Below, in pieces: positions 1,717 to 24,999 of a stretch of DNA of 61,080 nucleotides. The DNA comes from a candidate division WOR-3 bacterium (GTDB lineage: Bacteria; Hydrothermota; Tepidihabitantia; Tepidihabitantales; Tepidihabitantaceae): contig VGIR01000008.1 of the NCBI GenBank assembly GCA_016867815.1, forward strand, positions 1 to 61,080, in the 5' to 3' direction. Each line of letters starts with the position of its first letter. Position 1 is the stretch's first letter. The position numbers and the translations under genes are program-made. The notes under the pieces are model-generated. The model was not told where the DNA came from. It worked only from the letters and a program-made list of their open reading frames with translations, and searched no databases.

Positions 1717-2940
1717 TCAGGGCAGTTCCTCGAGCAGGTTCTGCCTGTAGGCGGCGCTGTAGGGCAGCAGATAGACGGCCGTGGTGAAGAACCCGACCCG
1801 GCGCGGTCTGCGCAGCATCCGGTCGGCTATCGTCCCCATCGAGTAAAAACGGTACTTCAACCAGGCAGGTTCGGCTGACGTGATCGTGGGTCGATAGACA
1901 ACTTGCGCTAGGCTGCCGTCAGGACGCAGGAAACGCGGCTCTATGAAATCCAGGTCGATTTGCCGGAGCAGCGTGGCGATCCGGTCGTAGTCGGGCGGCG
2001 TACTCGGTTCCAGCGGCATGACCAGGCGCGCACCCACGAGCATCTTGTTCGCCTGCAGTGACTTGACTCGCCGGTACAACTGGTGCGTTAGTCGATGGCT
2101 GTCCGCGGCGCGGCGCAGCTTTCCCAGCAGGAACGACTCGTCCAAGTAGACGATCTTGGTGCCGGCCTTGGACAGGAGGCGAATCAGCCGGGGCTGCTCG
2201 AACAGCCGCTCAGACGCATTTACGATCCACTGTCGCCGGTGGTCGCGAAGTCGAGTGAAGAGCTCCTGGTAGTAGTCCGGCGCGGCGGCGACGTCGTCGT
2301 CCAGCAGTTGGATGCGCTTGCCCGGCAGCGTGATGACCTCGCCGACGATCTCTTCGGGGCTGCGCATCATTCTGTTCCTTCCGTAGTACAGGTGTTCGGT
2401 GCAGAGCCTTCTGACCGGCTCCGGGCAGAAGCACCCGCGCGCGAACTGGATGGTCTGTCCGGCGGAGTCCATCTCGAAGTTGACTCCGACCTGGCGAGGG
2501 GAGGTGTAGCCCGGGATCTCGGTCGCAACATAGACCGGCCGCAACCGCCCGGACTCGGCGTCGGCTCTCAGCTGGGGCCAGATGTTGGTGATATCGCCGA
2601 CCACGCGGGGTCTGGCCCAGGCTGGCGCGGCTTCCCGCCAGGACGTGACCTGCGGACCGAAGAAAACCGGGGTGCCTGCTCCGGTCGTCCAGTTGTGCAG
2701 CAGTTCCCTGCCCCGGTCTCTCTGGCCCAGTCCGATGTGCACCAGGCAGAGGTCGTGGTCGGGTTGCTCGGCGGATTCCACCCGTTCGTCCAGGTAGCGC
2801 AGCCGGTCGCCGGGGCGCAGCAGCGCGGCGATGCGCATGACCTCGAGGTTCGGCCGCAGGAACAGCCGCGCCCCTTTGGGCGCGTAGCCTTTGATGAAGC
2901 GCTGGGTATCGTCGGCCAGCGCGACGGCCAGGACGTTCAC
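1717..2940 (-). CDS. Degenerate B12-binding/radical SAM-like protein
   Basis: A 407-residue protein with the layout of B12-binding-domain radical SAM enzymes: an N-terminal Rossmann-like half (CLVHIGLG, VFFGPQ, VVGDI) and a TIM-barrel-like half (IQLLDDDV, IVNASERLFEQP). Where family members carry CxxxCxxC for the [4Fe-4S] cluster, this protein reads GCFCPEPVRRLC, with Cys at 170, 172 and 180. The spacing is wrong, so a classical SAM-cleaving cluster is doubtful. The GTG start overlaps the rseP stop as GTGA, so the two are translationally coupled. It is the last gene of the ispD-dxr-rseP operon. Function is unknown; it may be a catalytically altered or structural homologue. Confidence 0.65.
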   Translation of the reverse strand: MNVLAVALADDTQRFIKGYAPKGARLFLRPNLEVMRIAALLRPGDRLRYLDERVESAEQPDHDLCLVHIGLGQRDRGRELLHNWTTGAGTPVFFGPQVTSWREAAPAWARPRVVGDITNIWPQLRADAESGRLRPVYVATEIPGYTSPRQVGVNFEMDSAGQTIQFARGCFCPEPVRRLCTEHLYYGRNRMMRSPEEIVGEVITLPGKRIQLLDDDVAAAPDYYQELFTRLRDHRRQWIVNASERLFEQPRLIRLLSKAGTKIVYLDESFLLGKLRRAADSHRLTHQLYRRVKSLQANKMLVGARLVMPLEPSTPPDYDRIATLLRQIDLDFIEPRFLRPDGSLAQVVYRPTITSAEPAWLKYRFYSMGTIADRMLRRPRRVGFFTTAVYLLPYSAAYRQNLLEELP

Positions 2941-4517
2941 TTGCGGATCAGTCTGAGAATGTCGTTGAAGATGGTGAAGACAGCGAGGGCCCCGATCATC
3001 ACCCAGCCGATGCCTGCGGCCCAGCTGAGTTCCTTTTCGTTAAGATTGCGGCGGCGGATGCCCGCGATGCAGTCGAGGACGATGCGGCCGCCGTCAAGTA
3101 CCGGCACGGGCAGCAGGTTGACCACGAACAGGTTGATCGACAGTATCGCGAAGAGCAGCAGGAAGTAGTCCCATCCCCAGTTGGCGCCTTCATACGCGAT
3201 CCTGGCGACCATGATCGGTCCGCCGAGCGCTTTCTTGGCGAAGTTCTTGATCGTTACCGCCTTGTAGAGCACGACGTATGTCTGCACGGTAACCGTGCCG
3301 ACCTTGCTCGCTGCCTCGCCGACTGCCATCGGGAAACTCAGCTTGCGGTGGGGCACGCGTGCGGAAATGCCGATGGCGCCCGCCTGCTGGCCCATGAGCT
3401 GGTCGCCTTCCTTGGTGACTGCGACCTTGGCCCGCATCGTCTCGGCGCCGCGCTGCCAGGTGATGGGTACGGTCTCGCCGCCCCGGGCGTAGACCGCCTC
3501 GGTGAAGTCAGTCCATTCCCGCACCGGCAGGCCGGCGAACTCGATGATCGAGTCACCCGGCCGCATCCCTGCCTTGCCGGCCGGCCCGCCCTTGCGCACG
3601 TTGCCGACGACTGCCGCGACTCGCGGGGCGATGTACCAGTCGGTGCTGACCTGGACTCCGGCGAGGTTGATCCTGGCCCCCGTTTCGGCGTCCGTGGTCA
3701 GGGAGTCCCTTAGTGTGTCGACGTGGACCGCACCGGCGTGTCGCCACGACAGCTCGTAGCTGCCCCCGGTCTGCCTGCGCACAATTTCGGTGAATCCGGT
3801 CCAGGTTGTCACCGGCGTCCCGGCGACGGCGATGATGGTGTCTCCGGGCTGGAGATCGGTGGCCGAGGCCGGACCGCCCGCCAGCAGATTGCCGACTACC
3901 GGTGGGACGAGCGTGTCGACGTACGCGAGCGGTACGGTTATCGGCACGTCGAGCCGCTGGCCGTCGCGGAGCACCGATACGCTGACCTGCCTGCCGGCGT
4001 TTTCCTGCATCCTGGCGTCGAAATCGTCGAAGGATGGAACGACTCTCCCGTCTACCGCGACCACCATATCGCCCGGCCGCAAGCCCACGGCAAAGGCGGC
4101 CGATCGCGCATCCGGGGATATGACCGGCGCGGTATAGGGCAGGCCGAAAGCGGCATAGAGCACGAGCAGGATGAGGAAGCCGAGCAGGAGGTTCGACAGC
4201 GGGCCGGCCGCGATGACGGCGACTTTGACGCCGAGCGGTTTGTCCATGTACCCGCCGGACGGGGCAGGTACCGGCTGCGCAGGCGCCGGGCCGGCCTTCT
4301 CTTCTTCGCCGACCATCTTGATGAACCCGCCCAGTGGAATGGCTGAAAGCCGGTACTCGGTTTCGCCGAACTTCTTCTTGAGGATGACCGGGCCGAACCC
4401 GACCGAGAAGACCTCGACCGGGATACGCGAGAGTTTGGCGGCGATCAGGTGGCCGAACTCGTGGAAGATTATCAGTATGCCGATGAACAGGACGACCAGG
4501 ACAATTGACGAGAACAT
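2937..4517 (-). CDS. rseP: Site-2 intramembrane metalloprotease RseP, three PDZ domains
   Basis: Inner-membrane zinc protease that cleaves membrane-anchored regulators such as anti-sigma factors and leftover signal peptides. The first transmembrane helix holds HEFGH (residues 19-23), and the third zinc ligand is in VLDGG near residue 475. Between the catalytic helices are three PDZ repeats, each with a PGD core (GLRPGDMV, LQPGDTII, MRPGDSII). E. coli RseP has two, which explains the 526-residue length. It starts one base after the dxr stop and overlaps the next gene by four bases. The dxr-rseP order is common in bacteria. Confidence 0.93.
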   Translation of the reverse strand: MFSSIVLVVLFIGILIIFHEFGHLIAAKLSRIPVEVFSVGFGPVILKKKFGETEYRLSAIPLGGFIKMVGEEEKAGPAPAQPVPAPSGGYMDKPLGVKVAVIAAGPLSNLLLGFLILLVLYAAFGLPYTAPVISPDARSAAFAVGLRPGDMVVAVDGRVVPSFDDFDARMQENAGRQVSVSVLRDGQRLDVPITVPLAYVDTLVPPVVGNLLAGGPASATDLQPGDTIIAVAGTPVTTWTGFTEIVRRQTGGSYELSWRHAGAVHVDTLRDSLTTDAETGARINLAGVQVSTDWYIAPRVAAVVGNVRKGGPAGKAGMRPGDSIIEFAGLPVREWTDFTEAVYARGGETVPITWQRGAETMRAKVAVTKEGDQLMGQQAGAIGISARVPHRKLSFPMAVGEAASKVGTVTVQTYVVLYKAVTIKNFAKKALGGPIMVARIAYEGANWGWDYFLLLFAILSINLFVVNLLPVPVLDGGRIVLDCIAGIRRRNLNEKELSWAAGIGWVMIGALAVFTIFNDILRLIRK

Positions 4518-4518
4518 G

Positions 4519-5709
4519 CTATTCCTTTCGACGCGCCAAGCGGTCGGCGAGCGCGGCTACCGTTTTGCCGGCCTGTAGGGACGCGAGAGACTCCATGCGC
4601 AGAAGCCCTCGGACAGAGGGACGAGGCAGGGGAGAGGAGGGATGGGAGACGGCCGCCAGCGCCCGAGAAATGACTCCAGGGATGTCTCCGAACAGAATCC
4701 GGCCCGCAATGAACGCGTCGACCGCGACCTGGTTCGCCGCATTCAGAGCGCAGGTGGCGGCCGGGCCGGCTCTCAAAGCCCGGTATGCCAGTTCCAGACA
4801 GGGGAACCGGTTGCGGTCCACCGCGTGGAAATCGAGACGGCCGATGCCTGCCAGGTCCAGAGTCCGGGTGAGCGAAGGTACGCGGTCCGGCCACGTCAGG
4901 CAGTATTGGAGCGGCAGGCGCATGTCGGGCAGGGAGAGCTGGGCAAGTACCGAACCATCGTTGAACTCGACCAGCGAGTGGACTATGGACTGCGGGTGGA
5001 TGACCGGTTCGACCTGGTCGGGACTGAGACCGAACAGCCGGCAGGTCTCTATGACCTCGAGGCCCTTGTTCATCAGCGTTGCGGAATCGATGGTGATCTT
5101 GCGTCCCATGGACCAGGTCGGGTGCCGGAGCACCTCGGCCAGACCGGCCTGCGGCGGCAGCCCTTTCTTCCAGAACGGACCTCCGGAAGCGGTCAGGATT
5201 ACCCGGCGGATGTCGGTAGTCGGTCGGCCGGCAAGACACTGGTGCACGGCGGATAGCTCAGAGTCGATCGGCAGAACCGCGCCACCGCACCGGCGTGCGA
5301 GCCTCATTACCGGCTCGCCGTAGCCAACCAGTATCTCCTTGGTGGCCAGCGCGACCTTCTTTCCGTTTTCGAGCGCGGCCACGACGGCCAGCAGGCCGGC
5401 GGTGCCTGACATGGCCATGACAACGACGTCGTTCGAGCGGGCGGCGGCTGCGTCAATCAACGCCGCCGGGCCCCAGGCGACACTCGTCCCTGGTTCCAGC
5501 GCCGGTCGCGCAGCTTCGCAGGCGCCGTAGTCGCTCAGGATCACCTGCTCCGGCCTGAACTCCCGCGCCTGCCTGAGGATGCTCCGGACCGAGCGGTTGG
5601 CGGCCAGCGCCACGATTTCGAACCGGTCCGGCAGGTGCCGTACCACATCGAGGGTGGAGCGGCCGATAGACCCGGTTGACCCGAACAAGGCGATGCGCTG
5701 CTTTCTCAC
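4519..5709 (-). CDS. dxr: 1-deoxy-D-xylulose 5-phosphate reductoisomerase
   Basis: Converts DXP to MEP with NADPH in the non-mevalonate isoprenoid pathway. The N-terminus has the nucleotide-binding GSTGSIGRSTLDV. The metal and substrate region is visible as LPIDSELSA, followed by LTASGGPFW and DSATLMNKGLEVIE. I prefer GTG 5709, which overlaps the ispD stop as GTGA and has GAGG upstream. An ATG at 5724 would add five residues. Near the C-terminus a short Pro/Ser-rich insert (SHPSSPLPRPSVRG) replaces the usual compact helix linker. Its DNA resembles the local intergenic repeats. The gene sits between ispD and rseP in one operon. Confidence 0.95.
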   Translation of the reverse strand: MRKQRIALFGSTGSIGRSTLDVVRHLPDRFEIVALAANRSVRSILRQAREFRPEQVILSDYGACEAARPALEPGTSVAWGPAALIDAAAARSNDVVVMAMSGTAGLLAVVAALENGKKVALATKEILVGYGEPVMRLARRCGGAVLPIDSELSAVHQCLAGRPTTDIRRVILTASGGPFWKKGLPPQAGLAEVLRHPTWSMGRKITIDSATLMNKGLEVIETCRLFGLSPDQVEPVIHPQSIVHSLVEFNDGSVLAQLSLPDMRLPLQYCLTWPDRVPSLTRTLDLAGIGRLDFHAVDRNRFPCLELAYRALRAGPAATCALNAANQVAVDAFIAGRILFGDIPGVISRALAAVSHPSSPLPRPSVRGLLRMESLASLQAGKTVAALADRLARRKE

Positions 5710-6389
5710 AGCAGGGCCTCGCACAGCAGCAGGTCCTCAGGCGTGGTGATCTTCAGGTTCGTGCGCGGGCCCGGCAGCCAGTGGGGCCGGAGGTCGAGCA
5801 TCTCGATCAGCGCGCAGTCGTCGCTCGCGATGATGCCGGCGTTGCGGGCCTTGGCATAGGCGCGGCGGAGCAGGGCCAGGTGGAAGAACTGTGGCGTCTG
5901 GACGGCAATCAACGCATCCCGATCCACCGTCTCGGTGATGGCCCGATCTTGCACGCGCTTCAGCGTATCGGTGACCGCGTAACCAAAGGTGGCAGCGTCG
6001 TACTTGCGGCAGGCGCGGAAGCCCTGCTCCAGCATTCGGGTAGAGATGACCGGGCGCGCGGCGTCGTGAATGGCGACCCACCCATCTTCCGGCAGCGCGG
6101 CCAGCCCGGCCGCAACCGAGTCGGTCCGTTCCCTGCCCCCGGCTACGACGTCCAGCAATTTGCGCACGCCCTGCTGGCGCAACAGGGTCCGCACATATCC
6201 GACCCGCTCGGCCGTGGTCACGACCACGAAACCGGAGACGGCCCGGCAGTTCTCGAAAACGAGGATGCTGTGGAGCAGGGCCGGCTTGCCTTTGATCCGG
6301 GAGAACTGCTTCATGCCGCCGAAGCGGCGTCCTCTCCCGGCCGCGACAATCAGGCCGAATCTGGAACCGTGCCCCAGTGGTGAAGTCAA
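5706..6389 (-). CDS. ispD: 2-C-methyl-D-erythritol 4-phosphate cytidylyltransferase
   Basis: Transfers CMP from CTP to MEP, the step after Dxr. Family motifs are visible: the CTP-binding loop LIVAAGRGRRFGGMKQF near residues 13-29, GGRERTDSV, AIHDAARPVIS, and the late TPQFF and DDCALIE. At 227 residues it has normal length. The only upstream in-frame start is TTG 6389, directly after a weak promoter-like stretch, so the exact first residue is uncertain. It overlaps dxr by four bases (GTGA) and heads the operon. Confidence 0.92.
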   Translation of the reverse strand: MTSPLGHGSRFGLIVAAGRGRRFGGMKQFSRIKGKPALLHSILVFENCRAVSGFVVVTTAERVGYVRTLLRQQGVRKLLDVVAGGRERTDSVAAGLAALPEDGWVAIHDAARPVISTRMLEQGFRACRKYDAATFGYAVTDTLKRVQDRAITETVDRDALIAVQTPQFFHLALLRRAYAKARNAGIIASDDCALIEMLDLRPHWLPGPRTNLKITTPEDLLLCEALL

Positions 6390-6450: not shown

Positions 6451-7446
6451 CTACTTAAAGTAGTCTATCTTCATCGCTTCCCGCACGAGCGACATAGTCG
6501 CCGCTCCCTCCTCGCAGGCGCGGGCGGTGCCCTTGTTCAGGATGTCCCAGACCGTGTCCGGCGACTTCTCATAGACGGCCCGGCGCTCACGGATCGGGGC
6601 GAGAAAGCGATTGAGGACGTCGATCAGCAGTTTCTTGCAGGCCACGCAGCCGATAGTGCCGGCCTTGCAGCGCTCTTCTATCTCTGAACTGCCCTCGGGG
6701 TTGAATACTCTGTGGTAGGCATAGACGACGCAAACGTCAGGATGGCCCTTGTCGGTGGGGTGAATCCGGGCCTTGTCAGTGAGCGCGGTAGAGACCTTCC
6801 GCTTCACCTCCTCCGGTGGGTCGGAAAGGAATATGGCGTTGCCCAGGCTCTTGGACATCTTGGTATTGCCGTCCAGCCCGACCAGCCGCGACACCTCGCT
6901 GACCCGGGCATCCGGCTCGACCAGCACCGGGGCGTAGGTGGCATTGAACTTCCGGACTATCTTCCGGGTCTGCTCGATGTGGGGAAGCTGGTCCTCGCCG
7001 ACCGGGACGAGATGGGCGCGGCAGAACGTGATATCTGCGGCCTGGCTTACGGGGTAGCTCAGGAACCCGAGCGGCATCGACTCGCCGAAATTGTACTGGG
7101 CGGCCTCGGTCTTGATGGTGGGATTGTGGGAGAGCTGCTGCACCGTGACCAGGTTCGAGTAGATGACAGTCAGCTCGGCAATCTGCGGAACCAGGGATTG
7201 GATGAACAGCGTGGCTCTGGCCGGGTCCAACCCGCAGGCGAGGTTGTCCATCGCCACGTTCAGCACGTCCTGGTGCAGTCGTTCCGGGTGGTCGAAATGG
7301 GTCGTCAGCATCTGGACGTCGGCGAGGATGATGAACGACTCGTACTCGTCCTGCAGCTTCACCCGGTTCGCAACCGAGCCGACGTAATGGCCCAGATGCA
7401 GGGGGCCGGTCGGGCGGTCGCCCGTCAGAATCCGCTTCTTTTCCAT
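6451..7446 (-). CDS. trpS: Tryptophanyl-tRNA synthetase
   Basis: Charges tRNA-Trp. It is a class I synthetase of 331 residues, the usual bacterial length. The HIGH-type motif is PLHLGHYVG near residues 15-23, and the KMSKS loop is present intact (NTKMSKSLGN) near residue 200. It also has the TrpRS-specific GDRPTG and the SYPVSQAADI stretch for substrate recognition. The ATG lies seven bases from a TATAAT -10 box with no ribosome-binding site between, so the mRNA is predicted to be leaderless. Confidence 0.96.
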   Translation of the reverse strand: MEKKRILTGDRPTGPLHLGHYVGSVANRVKLQDEYESFIILADVQMLTTHFDHPERLHQDVLNVAMDNLACGLDPARATLFIQSLVPQIAELTVIYSNLVTVQQLSHNPTIKTEAAQYNFGESMPLGFLSYPVSQAADITFCRAHLVPVGEDQLPHIEQTRKIVRKFNATYAPVLVEPDARVSEVSRLVGLDGNTKMSKSLGNAIFLSDPPEEVKRKVSTALTDKARIHPTDKGHPDVCVVYAYHRVFNPEGSSEIEERCKAGTIGCVACKKLLIDVLNRFLAPIRERRAVYEKSPDTVWDILNKGTARACEEGAATMSLVREAMKIDYFK

Positions 7447-20001: not shown

Positions 20002-23000
20002 GTGAAGAAGCTCGGAATACTCATCACCGGAGCCATGATTCCGGCAATCCTGATGGCCCAGCTCACTGAGCAGTGGGTGGCGGCCTACAATGGCCCCTAC
20101 GGAACCGGTTGGGCGGAATTCCCGGTAGCGATGTCGGTTGACGCTGCCGGCAACACATATGTGACCGGCACCGGAAACACGACGCTCTCGCCAACCGGCA
20201 AAGACTATGTGACGGTCAAAGTCAACTCGAGCGGCGCCTTGCAGTGGGCGGCTGTCTATGACTACCACCTGGAGGACGTCCCAACTGCCATTGCGACGGA
20301 CGCCTCTGGGAATGTCTACGTGACCGGGTACAGCTGTCCACCTGGGAGAGCTGGTGACTACGTCACCGTGAAGTATGGAGCCAATGGCACACAGCAGTGG
20401 ATTTGTCGATATGATGGCCCTGCGGGAGGCTGGGACACGCCCTCGGCAATCGCGGTTGACGTCGCAGGCAACGTGTACGTGACAGGCAGCAGCATGCGCC
20501 CTGGTCTCAACCGCATGGGCAAGGACATCACGACCATCAAGTACGACCCAAACGGCAATGAGGTATGGGTACGCAGATACACCGACTCAGGAGACCGCTG
20601 GTGCGAGGGTCGGGACGTAGTAGTGGACGCCGCTGGGTACGTCTACGTGGCCGGAGTACTGGATTCCGACGGCAGCAATGGCGGGCTGGCGGCACTGAAG
20701 TACGGCGCGAGCGGGAATCTGCTGTGGGTGAGCCGCCACGACGGTCCCGGTCTGCATGAGGCCGGCCACAAGATCGCACTCGATGTCGACGGCAACGTCA
20801 TCGTGACCGGTAAGAGCACCTATGTCGGGCCGTCAACGCTCTATCTGACGGTCAAGTACAACAGCAGCGGCGCAGAGCAGTGGTGGAAGACCTACGACGA
20901 CCTCACCGGCAACGACGACGCGGCCTGCGCGGTCGTTACCGACGCTTCGGGTAGTATATACGTCACCGGTCACAGCAAGAACTCCACCACAGGCTACGAC
21001 TACGCGACCATCAAGTACAGCCCGCTCGGCGAGGAGCTCTGGGTACGGCGTTACGACGTGTATTCCGGCAACCTGGAGGACCGGGCAACGGGGCTCGCGC
21101 TGGACGCCTCGGGCAGTATTGTCGTGACCGGCTACAGTGCCAGAGCCGTCAGCGGCATGGACTACGCAACGGTGAAGTACAGCCCGGACGGAACCGAACT
21201 CTGGGTCAGCCGGTACGACGGTCCGGTCAGCGGCAACGATGAAGCGCGCGCGATTGGTGTCGATCCGCAGGGGAACGTCTACGTTACGGGAAACAGCGTC
21301 GGGGATGGCTCCAGCCATGACTTCCTGACCGTCAAGTACAGCTCGGACGGGGCACAGCAATGGGTAAGCCGGTACGGCCGGGGCTACAGCGCGGACGCCG
21401 GGCAGAGGGTTGCCATGGATGCTCTCGGCAACGTCTACGTGACGGGATACAGCGTCGGCACGTCCCAGAAAAACGACTATGTGACAATCAAGTACGACCC
21501 TGACGGCGAGACGCTCTGGACTCGACGCTACAACGGTCCGCTGGACCACGAGGACTGCCCGACCGCCATCGCCGTTGACGGCGACGGCAACGTCTATGTG
21601 ACCGGATACAGCATAGGCCTTGCCGGCTGGTACGACTGCGCGACGATCAAGTACGCCTCTGACGGGACTATGCTCTGGGTAGACCGCTATGAAAGGACCG
21701 ACGGCAGGAACGACTGCGGATACGCCCTCGCGGTGGACGGGTCAGGCTTCGTCTATGTCACCGGGTATACAGGCGCCTGGGCAGACGTCCTCACCATCAA
21801 GTACGCGCCTTCGGGCAGCCGCGAGTGGGTTGCGGTCTACAACAACCCGTCGGGCGGACATGACGTTGGCTGGGCTGTGACCGCTGACGCGTCCGGCAAT
21901 GTCTACGTGGCAGGCCACTCGAGGCTCGACTATCTGCTGATCAAGTACAGCAGCACGGGTGTCGAGCAGTGGAGCAGGAGGGCCGACTACGGCGGCGACG
22001 ATCAAGCGAAGGACGTTGCCGTGGACGCCTCGGGGAATGCGTACATCACCGGAACGGGCAACAAGGACTACGTAACTGCGAAGTACAACTCCGCCGGCAC
22101 GCGCGAGTGGTTCCAGCGCCACGATGGTTTGGCGTACACCGTGGATGCGGGCTGGGCGCTCGAGCTCGATGGCACTGGAGTCTATGTCACCGGGCAGAGT
22201 AGTCGCCCGGAATCCGGCCTGGACTTCTACACTGTGAAGTACGACTTGGCGGGCACCAGACTCTGGGACAGATGGTATACCAGTGCGGAGGACAGGGCCG
22301 ATGCCGCTCAGGACATCGCCCTGGACGGCGCAGGCAACGTGTATGTGACCGGGTACTGCACGCGCGCGTATTCTGGTGAGGACTATGCGACGCTCATGTA
22401 CGACGCTGCGACCGGAGTCCAGCTCGCCTTTGCCGACTACACGGGCCTGCCACACAAGTCGGACCGCTCGCTCTCGGTTGCCACCGGGCCCGCCGGCACA
22501 GTCTGCATCACGGGCTATGCCCTTCGTGATCCAGCGCTCGCCACGGACATGGTTACCATCAAGTATCAGAGCCTGCAGCCGCCGGAAGCGCCGGTGCTGG
22601 TGTCGCCGAAGAACGGTGCGACCGGCGTGCCGATTGAGGGCGATTTGACCTGGGAGGCATCGGAACGTGCGACCAGCTACGAGGTCACCTTGGACGGCAA
22701 CACGTACACCGTAACCGGCAACTCGTACCACTATAGCGGACTCAGCTACCTGACCGAATACGAATGGGACGTAGTCGCCGTTAACGACGCCGGCAGCACG
22801 CCTTCGTCGAACGGGCCGTTCACCTTTGCCACGATCATCGAGAAGCCCGGCCCGTTTGACCTCATCAGCCCGGCGGATGATGCAACCGGCGTGCCGATTG
22901 AGGGCAATCTGACCTGGGAGGCATCGGAACGTGCGACCAGCTATGAAGTGACCCTGGGCGGCAACACGTACACCGTGACCGAGAACTCGTACCACTATAG

Positions 23001-24999
23001 CGGACTCGACTACCTGACCAAGTACAAATGGAACGTAGTCGCCGTGAACGACGGCGGCAGCACCTCTTCGGGGACCGGGCCGTACAGCTTCACCACGATC
23101 ATCGAGAAGCCCGGCCCGTTTGACCTCATCAGCCCGGCGGATGGTGCGACCGGCGTGCCGGTTGAGGGCGATTTGACCTGGGAGGCATCGGAGCGCGCGA
23201 CCAGCTATGAGGTCACCCTGAACGGCAACACCTACACCGTGACCGACAACTCATACCGCTACAGCGGACTCAGCTACCTGACGGAGTACACCTGGAACGT
23301 GACGGCCAAGAACGCCGGAGGGGAAAGGGTTTCGGCGAACGGGCCGTTCACTTTCACCACGATCATCGAGAAGCCCGGTCCGTTCGACCTTTCCACGCCG
23401 CCCGATCATGCGACCGGCGTGTCGATTCAGGGCGATCTGACCTGGCAGGGCTCGGAACGTGCGACCAGCTATGAAGTGACCCTGGGCGGCAACACGTACA
23501 CCGTGACCGAGAACTCGTACCACTATAGCGGACTCGACTACCTGGCCAAGTACGAATGGAACGTAGTCGCCTTGAATGATGGCGGCAGCACCCCTTCGTC
23601 GAACGGGCCGTTCACTTTCACCACGATCATCGAGAAGCCTGCCCGGTTTGACCTCATCGCCCCGGCTAACGAGGCCGTCGACCAGGAATTGGCCGGCGTA
23701 CTCGAGTGGAACGCTTCCAACCGTGCTGAGCACTACGACGTCTACCTCGGCACTGACCCAAAGAACCTGCCCAGGGTCAGTGAGAACCAGACCGGCCTCT
23801 CCTGGGATTACTCCGGGCTTTCATGCGGCACGGTCTACTACTGGAAGGTCGTGGCGAAGAACGCCGGGGGCGAGACCGGATCCGAGGTCTGGAGCTTCAC
23901 GACCGGTACTCTGGACGCAGGCATGACTGAGATCATCGAGCCGAGCGGGCTAATCGATACTACCTCGAAGGTACCGCAGGCTACGGTCCACAACTTCGGC
24001 ACCTTGGACCGCGACTTGACTACCTGGTTCGAGATACGCTACGGAGCTGCGGACGGCCCGGTGCAGTACCTGCAGTCGGTCACGGTGTACGGACTCGGCG
24101 ACGAAGACCAGACCGCGACGTTCCCGACCTGGGACGTGCCCAACGACCAGGAAGGCGCGTACTACGCCAAGTCATGGACCGAGCTTGAAGGCGACATCGA
24201 CGCGACGAACGACACGGCGCGGAGCCAGTTCGTGGTCGCGTCGTCAGACCCGGACCCGTGGAGCGGCTCGACGTTGACCCAGGGATACTGGAAGACCCAC
24301 CCCTACTACGACCCGCAACACCCGGATGACCCCTACATCGAGAAGTACCTTCCCGTGACAATAGCGGGCGTTAGGGTGAGTACTGTTCCCGAAGCCCTGG
24401 CGATCTTCAACCCGCCCAAGCCTATGACCGCGTGGAAGATGTTCCTTATCCAGTTTCTGGCGGCCAAGCTCAACGCCGGCTGGCAGACCGACCCCAGTCT
24501 TCTGGATGCCTGGTACAACTACCCGGGCGGCGACTATCCGTTCGATAGCCAGCAGGTCTCGGCGATCTTCCAGGTTGCGGACGGCTACAGGTCAACCACG
24601 GACAAAGATACACTGGATGAGATGAAGACCGTGCTCTGCAACATCAACGAGTACACCGACACGGGAAACCGCTGCCTCTGGGACGCTCCGTTCCCGGCCG
24701 GCAGCGGCGTGCAGGGCGTGGAGGTCGCCGCGCTTGCGGCGAAGCTGTACCTGTCGGTTGCACCCAGCCTGGTCAAGAGCGGCGTCGCGCACATCGCTTA
24801 CGGCCTGCCGCAGGCAGCCCCGGCTCAACTGACGGTACTGGACGTCACCGGCCGAACCGTGGTGACCCGGGGTCTCCCGGCGGAGGTTGGCGACCACGTC
24901 ATCCTGCTCGACACCCGGTCGTGGAGCGCCGGCGCCTACTTCGTCCGCATCACGGGCGCAGACCTGACAGCTACCAGGAAGCTCGTGGTTCAGCGCTAG
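20002..24999 (+). CDS. Giant secreted SBBP-repeat/fibronectin type III protein with T9SS-type tail
   Basis: A 1665-residue exported protein. GTG 20002 follows TAGGAGG and precedes a signal peptide (KKLGILITGAMIPAILMAQ). Residues of about 25-855 are some sixteen SBBP/delta-60-like repeats, each with a DASGNVYVTGYS and YATIKYSPDG core. About 858-1303 are five fibronectin III-like domains of 88 residues, four nearly identical. A CARDB-like domain follows (to about 1415), then a GYWKTHP module near 1430. The end is a T9SS-like tail (PAQLTVLDVTGRTVVTRGL, SAGAYFVRITG, RKLVVQ). It is probably a surface or extracellular structural protein. Confidence 0.85.
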   Translation: MKKLGILITGAMIPAILMAQLTEQWVAAYNGPYGTGWAEFPVAMSVDAAGNTYVTGTGNTTLSPTGKDYVTVKVNSSGALQWAAVYDYHLEDVPTAIATDASGNVYVTGYSCPPGRAGDYVTVKYGANGTQQWICRYDGPAGGWDTPSAIAVDVAGNVYVTGSSMRPGLNRMGKDITTIKYDPNGNEVWVRRYTDSGDRWCEGRDVVVDAAGYVYVAGVLDSDGSNGGLAALKYGASGNLLWVSRHDGPGLHEAGHKIALDVDGNVIVTGKSTYVGPSTLYLTVKYNSSGAEQWWKTYDDLTGNDDAACAVVTDASGSIYVTGHSKNSTTGYDYATIKYSPLGEELWVRRYDVYSGNLEDRATGLALDASGSIVVTGYSARAVSGMDYATVKYSPDGTELWVSRYDGPVSGNDEARAIGVDPQGNVYVTGNSVGDGSSHDFLTVKYSSDGAQQWVSRYGRGYSADAGQRVAMDALGNVYVTGYSVGTSQKNDYVTIKYDPDGETLWTRRYNGPLDHEDCPTAIAVDGDGNVYVTGYSIGLAGWYDCATIKYASDGTMLWVDRYERTDGRNDCGYALAVDGSGFVYVTGYTGAWADVLTIKYAPSGSREWVAVYNNPSGGHDVGWAVTADASGNVYVAGHSRLDYLLIKYSSTGVEQWSRRADYGGDDQAKDVAVDASGNAYITGTGNKDYVTAKYNSAGTREWFQRHDGLAYTVDAGWALELDGTGVYVTGQSSRPESGLDFYTVKYDLAGTRLWDRWYTSAEDRADAAQDIALDGAGNVYVTGYCTRAYSGEDYATLMYDAATGVQLAFADYTGLPHKSDRSLSVATGPAGTVCITGYALRDPALATDMVTIKYQSLQPPEAPVLVSPKNGATGVPIEGDLTWEASERATSYEVTLDGNTYTVTGNSYHYSGLSYLTEYEWDVVAVNDAGSTPSSNGPFTFATIIEKPGPFDLISPADDATGVPIEGNLTWEASERATSYEVTLGGNTYTVTENSYHYSGLDYLTKYKWNVVAVNDGGSTSSGTGPYSFTTIIEKPGPFDLISPADGATGVPVEGDLTWEASERATSYEVTLNGNTYTVTDNSYRYSGLSYLTEYTWNVTAKNAGGERVSANGPFTFTTIIEKPGPFDLSTPPDHATGVSIQGDLTWQGSERATSYEVTLGGNTYTVTENSYHYSGLDYLAKYEWNVVALNDGGSTPSSNGPFTFTTIIEKPARFDLIAPANEAVDQELAGVLEWNASNRAEHYDVYLGTDPKNLPRVSENQTGLSWDYSGLSCGTVYYWKVVAKNAGGETGSEVWSFTTGTLDAGMTEIIEPSGLIDTTSKVPQATVHNFGTLDRDLTTWFEIRYGAADGPVQYLQSVTVYGLGDEDQTATFPTWDVPNDQEGAYYAKSWTELEGDIDATNDTARSQFVVASSDPDPWSGSTLTQGYWKTHPYYDPQHPDDPYIEKYLPVTIAGVRVSTVPEALAIFNPPKPMTAWKMFLIQFLAAKLNAGWQTDPSLLDAWYNYPGGDYPFDSQQVSAIFQVADGYRSTTDKDTLDEMKTVLCNINEYTDTGNRCLWDAPFPAGSGVQGVEVAALAAKLYLSVAPSLVKSGVAHIAYGLPQAAPAQLTVLDVTGRTVVTRGLPAEVGDHVILLDTRSWSAGAYFVRITGADLTATRKLVVQR
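22576..23631 (+). repeat. Four tandem 264-bp coding repeats (FN3 modules)
   Basis: Unit boundaries recur exactly every 264 bases (22576, 22840, 23104, 23368, 23632), marked by GAGAAGCCCGGCCCGTTTG-like starts. DNA similarity stays high over long stretches, pointing to recent duplication or gene conversion. Confidence 0.85.

Follow-up and report, generated by a model that had tools for sequence, protein, structure and literature searches.

The window analysed here, a stretch of 61,080 nucleotides of contig VGIR01000008.1 from a candidate division WOR-3 bacterium, contains a gene, here called X, that closes an ispD-dxr-rseP run on one strand. Gene X starts with GTG at 2940 and stops with TGA at 1719-1717, and its start codon and the stop codon of rseP share 4 bp (GTGA). 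Its product carries the motif sequence GCFCPEPVRRLC, in which the three cysteines are numbered C170, C172 and C180 (C170-x-C172-x7-C180). The original prediction had described this product as a protein of B12-binding/radical SAM layout with a broken cluster motif, translationally coupled to rseP, and its reading frame, coordinates, strand and cysteine numbers are correct. The features to which the text refers are as follows.

1717..2940, minus strand: gene X, predicted radical-SAM-fold protein with CxCx7C, 407 amino acids, stop codon included
2431..2433, minus strand: codon of C170, aligned to canonical cluster cysteine 1 (hhalign); Cys in 45 of 45 members
2425..2427, minus strand: codon of C172, the middle cysteine at its new place; Cys in 45 of 45
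2401..2403, minus strand: codon of C180, aligned to canonical cluster cysteine 3 (hhalign); Cys in 45 of 45
2395..2397, minus strand: codon of E182, two residues past the last cysteine, at the TsrM E236 position; Glu in 39 of 45
2293..2301, minus strand: DDD motif, residues 214-216, after the strand at 209-212; placed on TsrM D271-E273 via two chained alignments
2937..4517, minus strand: rseP (site-2 protease with M50 and PDZ domains), directly upstream of X
4519..5724, minus strand: dxr (family match)
5706..6389, minus strand: ispD (family match)
6451..7446, minus strand: class-I (W/Y-type) aminoacyl-tRNA synthetase (PF00579), perhaps the head of the run

A scan for promoters and terminators returned a single promoter-like match (7481-7454, minus strand; 0.6 expected), and repeats around gene X are chance-like. 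Pfam gives no match for the window's X protein at E 1, and its single NCBIfam match is a weak one to HpnR (E 0.028). Convergent to X on the plus strand (249-1630) lie genes for a ThiI-like and NFACT-R_2 protein and for a NifU-like protein, relatives of which were each found in 9 of the 28 stretches mapped around X (some genomes are represented twice). Further along the window, at 22617-23666, there is a tandem array of four 264-bp units with 82% matches that perhaps encodes repeated domains of ~88 amino acids.

Conservation of the cysteine motif

The motif was counted in 46 distinct rows of the X family, from which one row cut before the motif (L055) was left out, giving 45 rows, one per genome. 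The count covers 45 of the 47 genomes that carry X; the other two are G039, whose row was not included, and G118, whose row is cut. All 45 full-length members have GCxC-x(6-7)-C, with G169, C170, C172 and C180 each present in 45 rows. The most diverged row, L029, keeps the three cysteines with x6 in place of x7. We looked for orthologues with CxxxCxxC and found it in 0 of 45, whereas canonical paralogues from the same loci have it in 13 of 13 cases. A frameshift, sequencing or assembly artefact as the source of the spacing is ruled out by its presence in 45 members from 45 genomes.

Other residues around the motif are conserved to various degrees. Residue 177 is K or R in 42 of 45 rows, and residue 179, immediately before the last cysteine, is F, Y or L in 43. 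The canonical radical-SAM motif reads CxPhiC, and residue 179 can be likened to its Phi. E182 is Glu in 39 rows and another residue in six, and the following position is variable (N in 15, Y in 7, H in 6 and F in 6 of 45). Further downstream, K208, D214 and W238 are invariant, residue 215 is D in 33 rows and E in 12, residue 216 is D in 42, and residue 268 is Glu in 39 and Asp in 4. No fourth conserved Cys or His near the motif, and no further conserved Cys, was found in the columns of the 45 rows.

Among six same-genus genes (15 pairs), dN/dS of X ranges from 0.15 to 0.26, indicating purifying selection, and the codons for C172 and C180 vary synonymously. Because the unusual spacing is present in 45 of 45 members and the gene is under purifying selection, the spacing is unlikely to reflect chance or sequencing faults. 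Together with the grouping of these members in a single clade (see below), these results indicate that the motif has been retained in an old family and is not in decay. Three invariant cysteines at a new spacing are, moreover, evidence for a working metal site. The spacing is thus real, as had been claimed, but "broken" does not describe it.

Predicted fold and nearest relatives

We modelled the window protein with AlphaFold2 together with 14 homologues (15 rows), as well as a 26%-identical member, L049 (14 rows). The model scores are pLDDT 87.6 and pTM 0.87 for the window protein, and pLDDT 85.1 and pTM 0.86 for L049. The best Foldseek matches of the X model are AprD4, MgmA, TsrM, MiaB, CysS and OxsB. 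In VIA-align comparisons the best structural match of both models (residues 1-373 and 1-397) is AprD4, a radical SAM 1,2-diol dehydratase (PDB 6fd2), with Z 20.5, rmsd 3.9 and 341 aligned residues for the window model and Z 25.6, rmsd 3.2 and 368 aligned residues for L049. The best entries of MgmA, OxsB, CysS, TsrM and MiaB gave Z 17.6-22.1 and TokK gave 13.9-16.1, while radical-SAM chains that match in the barrel only gave Z of about 10-11.

The matches to AprD4, MgmA, OxsB, CysS and TsrM cover nearly the whole predicted length of X, Rossmann part and barrel together. The models contain a partial (beta/alpha) barrel core (Z up to 25.6 to AprD4), and their N-terminal Rossmann domain aligns from residue 1 or 2 with OxsB, MgmA, TsrM and CysS. 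According to the models and the hhalign placement, the three conserved cysteines would sit on a loop past the first barrel strand. In the L049 model a strand at 160-163 precedes this loop, where the window model has just two-residue strands. Both models have helices within and after the motif, one of them a short helix that separates the second cysteine from the third.

AprD4 resembles X in combining a Rossmann-like domain and a barrel with a non-canonical cysteine spacing (CxxxCxxxC in our alignment). However, the third cysteine is the shifted one in AprD4 and the second in X, identity is ~15%, and there is no evident substrate link.

At the sequence level, the nearest relatives of X that we found are canonical radical-SAM paralogues of the same class, of which seven (L030, L031, L033, L036-L038 and L040) were used for comparison. 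A profile-profile alignment of X with these seven gave a probability of 100 and E 2.2e-45 over 391 columns (hhalign). All seven have CxxxCxxC. Both hhalign and MAFFT align C170 with canonical C1 and C180 with canonical C3, and the residues past C3 are in register. In the hhalign alignment C172 lies inside a three-residue insert and the K/R (42 of 45) falls on canonical C2, whereas MAFFT places the second cysteine of X near C2. Which residue would have taken over from C2 therefore differs by aligner.

Domain models respond very differently to the two groups. Pfam Radical_SAM and B12-binding both match 7 of 7 canonical paralogues. In contrast, Radical_SAM (PF04055) matches just 2 of 15 X members (best E 5.3e-6; 13 without a match) and B12-binding (PF02310) matches 0 of 15 at E 0.1. 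The NCBIfam models BchE and HpnJ each match 9 of 15 X members (E 0.1 or better, best 1.2e-11) and HpnR matches 6 of 15, although such matches are weak. A role for X as the HpnR hopanoid C-3 methylase (TIGR04367) was rejected, the window protein scoring 13 bits against a curated cut-off of 650. A search of PDB sequences with the family profile returned at best a nicotinamidase at E 0.13, a chance match.

In an unrooted tree of 58 rows built with a quick method, a branch with support 100 (SH-aLRT) separates the 45 X rows from the canonical paralogues, and long branches are flagged on either side of the split. None of the 45 is a canonical orthologue with a restored motif; the next-best matches to the X profile (at most 158 bits) are paralogues, with CxxxCxxC in all 13 that were read. 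From the superfamily, rather than from a rooted tree, we infer that the canonical motif came first. By profile homology and predicted fold, X belongs to the radical-SAM superfamily, while it lacks the defining CX3CX2C motif. The claimed B12-binding/radical SAM layout is likewise borne out by the predicted fold and the hhalign match, and structure comparison with B12 radical SAM enzymes, which had been proposed as a check, gave the nearly full-length model matches listed above.

Compared with the paralogues, X has lost the Rossmann-domain signature GGxH...PEEA...GExE, and the window's own family also lacks their TPxPGT stretch. The first of these losses would suit a redox sensor or electron carrier in which an old radical-SAM scaffold has been reused to carry [2Fe-2S] or another non-SAM cluster. 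Such clusters are considered here because of similar spacings elsewhere: the available text of PMC11791143 describes CxCx7C plus a fourth Cys from a partner protein carrying [2Fe-2S] in human mitoribosomes, and that of PMC9737848 describes CxCx8C plus His in NEET proteins. Nevertheless, the 45 rows of X show no conserved fourth Cys or His close to the motif, and X has kept the barrel, the DDD motif and the places of cysteines 1 and 3, for which a simple redox protein would have no use. We consider a non-SAM cluster protein of this kind improbable.

Distribution and gene order

A first search of 61 genomes found strong X orthologues in 5 of 5 other genomes of the genus and 11 of 12 of the family, with distant ones across the class. 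We then ran an X profile of 16 rows against 147 genomes of the phylum, reporting rows at E 1e-30 or better. The scores split into two sets: a single gene scoring at least 317 bits in each of 47 genomes, and the remaining rows at 158 bits or less, one of which (144 bits) is the second piece of the X gene of G002. All 47 genomes belong to the window's class (47 of 65 class genomes), and identity between X subfamilies falls to 23%. A search of 390 genomes, with at most four candidates scored per genome, found the same 47 and no X in the 325 genomes beyond the class. One C-terminal peptide pattern, run against GTDB contigs, matched 15 loci (8 candidate division WOR-3, 5 Stahlbacteria and 2 'uncultured bacterium'); because a single pattern was used, X may be spread more widely. 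So far the X family has been found solely in this WOR-3 class.

Inspection of the 18 class genomes without an X match covered all but three genomes of family f8 (G036, G038 and G040). G050 carries the first 29 residues of X at a contig end, contigs of G014, G018 and G057 end ahead of the X slot, and G026 has matches to neither X nor dxr. In nine genomes (four of family f4 and five of f8) the ispD-dxr-rseP run is present and X does not follow it. In G042 (family 10) X can be recognised by no more than its final ~50-60 residues (L104, 300-488), and the 300 bases that remain before the contig end have no X match; this remnant may be a decayed copy, a diverged copy or an assembly join.

Gene order was counted in 45 genomes with X, and rseP lies directly upstream of X in 44 of them. 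The two genes overlap by 4 bp in 28 of the 45, including G119, where the overlap holds with a TTG start and not with the aligned start, and are 11-180 bases apart in 16. Of the 28 mapped stretches, 26 contain rseP, 25 dxr and 24 ispD. The coupling of X to rseP within a run of isoprenoid genes, as originally described, is supported, and the arrangement is kept across the class. The one exception is G021, where X lies elsewhere and the ispD-dxr-rseP run is on another contig. The neighbours of X in that genome (peptidase C25, GDT1, GH113 and TruD) have no common theme. The peptidase there (L092, 7345-10773, minus strand) is a C25 (gingipain-family) protein of 1143 amino acids with a Por secretion tail, and its gene, in the same orientation as X, ends ~26 bases ahead of it.

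In the families without X, we found no canonical radical-SAM gene in the X slot (5 of 8 f8 and 4 of 5 f4 genomes). Four f8 genomes (L111-L114) instead have a sodium:sulfate symporter/citrate transporter family protein (PF00939/PF03600) directly after rseP and the fifth, G046, has an unscanned 449-aa ORF there. In f4 the next ORF after rseP is on the opposite strand in 3 of 4 genomes, and in G020 it belongs to the tetrapyrrole-methylase family, 1.1 kb away. As these nine genomes keep ispD-dxr-rseP without X, the link between X and the pathway is not strict.

The gene order ispD-dxr-rseP-X also raises the possibility that X replaces a missing enzyme of the MEP pathway, namely IspG, IspH or IspF. 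IspG and IspH are themselves Fe-S enzymes. However, these enzymes are found alongside X: DXR is present in 46 of the 47 genomes with X (17 of 18 without; 63 of 65 in the class), IspH in 43 of 47 (15 of 18; 58 of 65) and IspF in 41 of 47 (15 of 18; 56 of 65), and IspG is present in the window's genome, the single one tested. Replacement as a general rule is thereby ruled out, and in any form it is highly improbable. Three fairly complete genomes of genus g18 that have X and dxr (G037, G039 and the single-contig G043) had no match to IspH (PF02401), as replacement would have it; these may include some without IspH altogether or with a diverged IspH. Other members of that genus do have IspH. A lipid or isoprenoid role would be suggested by gene order, and the tested MEP enzymes occur in most genomes both with and without X. 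X is tied first to the rseP slot, and to isoprenoids just by neighbourhood.

Such a tie to rseP might instead reflect a binding or regulatory partner of RseP that has ceased to be an enzyme, with the cysteines holding zinc or a structural cluster. A class-wide slot behind rseP with a 4-bp overlap in 28 of 45 genomes, the loss of many radical-SAM landmarks and the strong divergence between subfamilies would all fit a non-catalytic descendant. Nevertheless, D214, K208 and W238 (45 of 45) and E268 (39 of 45) are conserved beyond what a scaffold would need, and the dN/dS values suit active and non-catalytic proteins alike. We regard the non-catalytic alternative as unlikely; an active SAM enzyme, whether radical or polar, is more likely than a dead one.

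Many f6 genomes (e.g. L049, 5896-6000) have a spacer of 11-180 bp between rseP and X where others have the 4-bp overlap. Several of these spacers carry repeated ATCCGT/ATCTGT-like words, possibly a small repeat element.

Possible chemistry of the rebuilt cluster loop

The combined evidence favours X being a working Fe-S enzyme of radical-SAM fold that probably binds SAM and has a rebuilt cluster loop with a relocated ligand, a reading to which we give a probability of roughly 0.6. X likely binds an Fe-S cluster and probably SAM. The cluster loop would have been rebuilt, probably once, in the ancestor of this WOR-3 class: cysteines 1 and 3 would have stayed, the middle ligand would have moved to two residues past cysteine 1, and the loop would have gained about three residues. 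The three cysteines may have kept their role in binding an iron-sulfur cluster, which would most likely be [4Fe-4S], with the DDD/DED motif and E182 helping to bind SAM. SAM might then be cleaved to give a radical; alternatively, an Asp of the DDD motif might coordinate the fourth iron, with polar chemistry as in TsrM. The substrate is perhaps envelope-related; with SAM, X would modify an envelope- or membrane-related molecule in whose synthesis or processing RseP and the isoprenoid enzymes also take part. Counting against this reading are the paralogue landmarks that X has lost, the scarcity of Pfam matches among its members, the six rows lacking E182 and three lacking D216, the short helix drawn inside the motif in both models, and the nine genomes that have ispD-dxr-rseP but not X.

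Shifted ligands are compatible with activity, as other spacings occur in AprD4 and in three further radical-SAM enzymes that work with a changed motif, ThiC (CX2CX4C), HmdB (CX5CX2C) and QueE (CX14CX2C) (PMC4389238, in part), none of which has CX1CX7C.

The special case in which X resembles TsrM, a cobalamin-dependent tryptophan C2-methyltransferase (PDB 6wte/6wtf), deserves separate consideration. The two proteins share a predicted fold (Z 17.3-20.9), and in part of PMC9692996 TsrM E236, two residues past the last cluster cysteine, is described as contacting SAM and cobalamin; X has Glu at this position in 39 of 45 rows. D216 of X (42 of 45) aligns to canonical N206 (hhalign) and through it to TsrM E273, by a hand-read chain of two alignments. 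According to an extract of PMC11659888, E273 sits 2.07 A from the unique iron, and D112, the middle Asp of a DDD motif, coordinates that iron in the PDZ-DUF512 radical SAM protein csDUF512. In a TsrM-like X, the three cysteines and an Asp of the DDD motif would hold the cluster, SAM would be kept off the unique iron, and a methyl or other group would be transferred by polar chemistry.

Several points count against this special case. The same extract of PMC11659888 reports that TsrM remains unable to form a radical when it carries E273A, so that E273 alone does not decide between polar and radical chemistry. The paralogues read DDN at the position of DDD in 7 of 7 rows, which argues that most of the motif is ancestral. 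TsrM itself has CxxxCxxC (GCAYRCSHC) and binds cobalamin, whereas X has CxCx7C and cobalamin binding finds no sequence support (Pfam B12-binding in 0 of 15). The TsrM positions in X, moreover, are hand-read from two alignments. The likeness to csDUF512 is one of description, and csDUF512 differs in having a leading PDZ domain, DUF512 as its cobalamin domain and the canonical C87/C91/C94 spacing (PMC11659888, in part). We therefore hold a TsrM-like mechanism to be a tentative possibility, and of the originally suggested non-radical descendant it can be said that E182 and residues 214-216 lend it some sequence support, while the E273 position alone is not decisive. The fuller proposition of a clade with CX1CX7C, a fourth iron held by Asp, polar SAM chemistry (or a new cluster chemistry) and a membrane-embedded substrate released by or shared with RseP is doubtful.

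Radical-SAM proteins are usually recognised by CX3CX2C, and a clade with CX1CX7C largely escapes Pfam. If X works as an enzyme, it would add one more entry to the short list of alternative cluster spacings. The X family, for which canonical paralogues within the class can serve as controls, also offers a natural test of how far the cluster loop can be rebuilt. It further suggests a task next to RseP in uncultured bacteria.

In the open-licence literature, available in part, we found no case of CX1CX7C replacing the radical-SAM cluster motif, and none of that literature was found to join WOR-3, radical SAM and cobalamin. The CXCX spacings found there belong to the mitoribosome, mitoNEET, an NFU1 variant and YfkAB-type proteins. 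The last of these, named 'radical SAM/CxCxxxxC motif' proteins, share a Cys-x-Cys motif with X (extracts of PMC10672896 and PMC12323379). They are set apart by description, since their CxC (printed as CxCxxxxC and CxCxxxC) belongs to a separate C-terminal domain (pfam08756) that follows an N-terminal Pfam radical-SAM domain (PMC10672896, in part), whereas the CxCx7C of X takes the place of the cluster motif itself.
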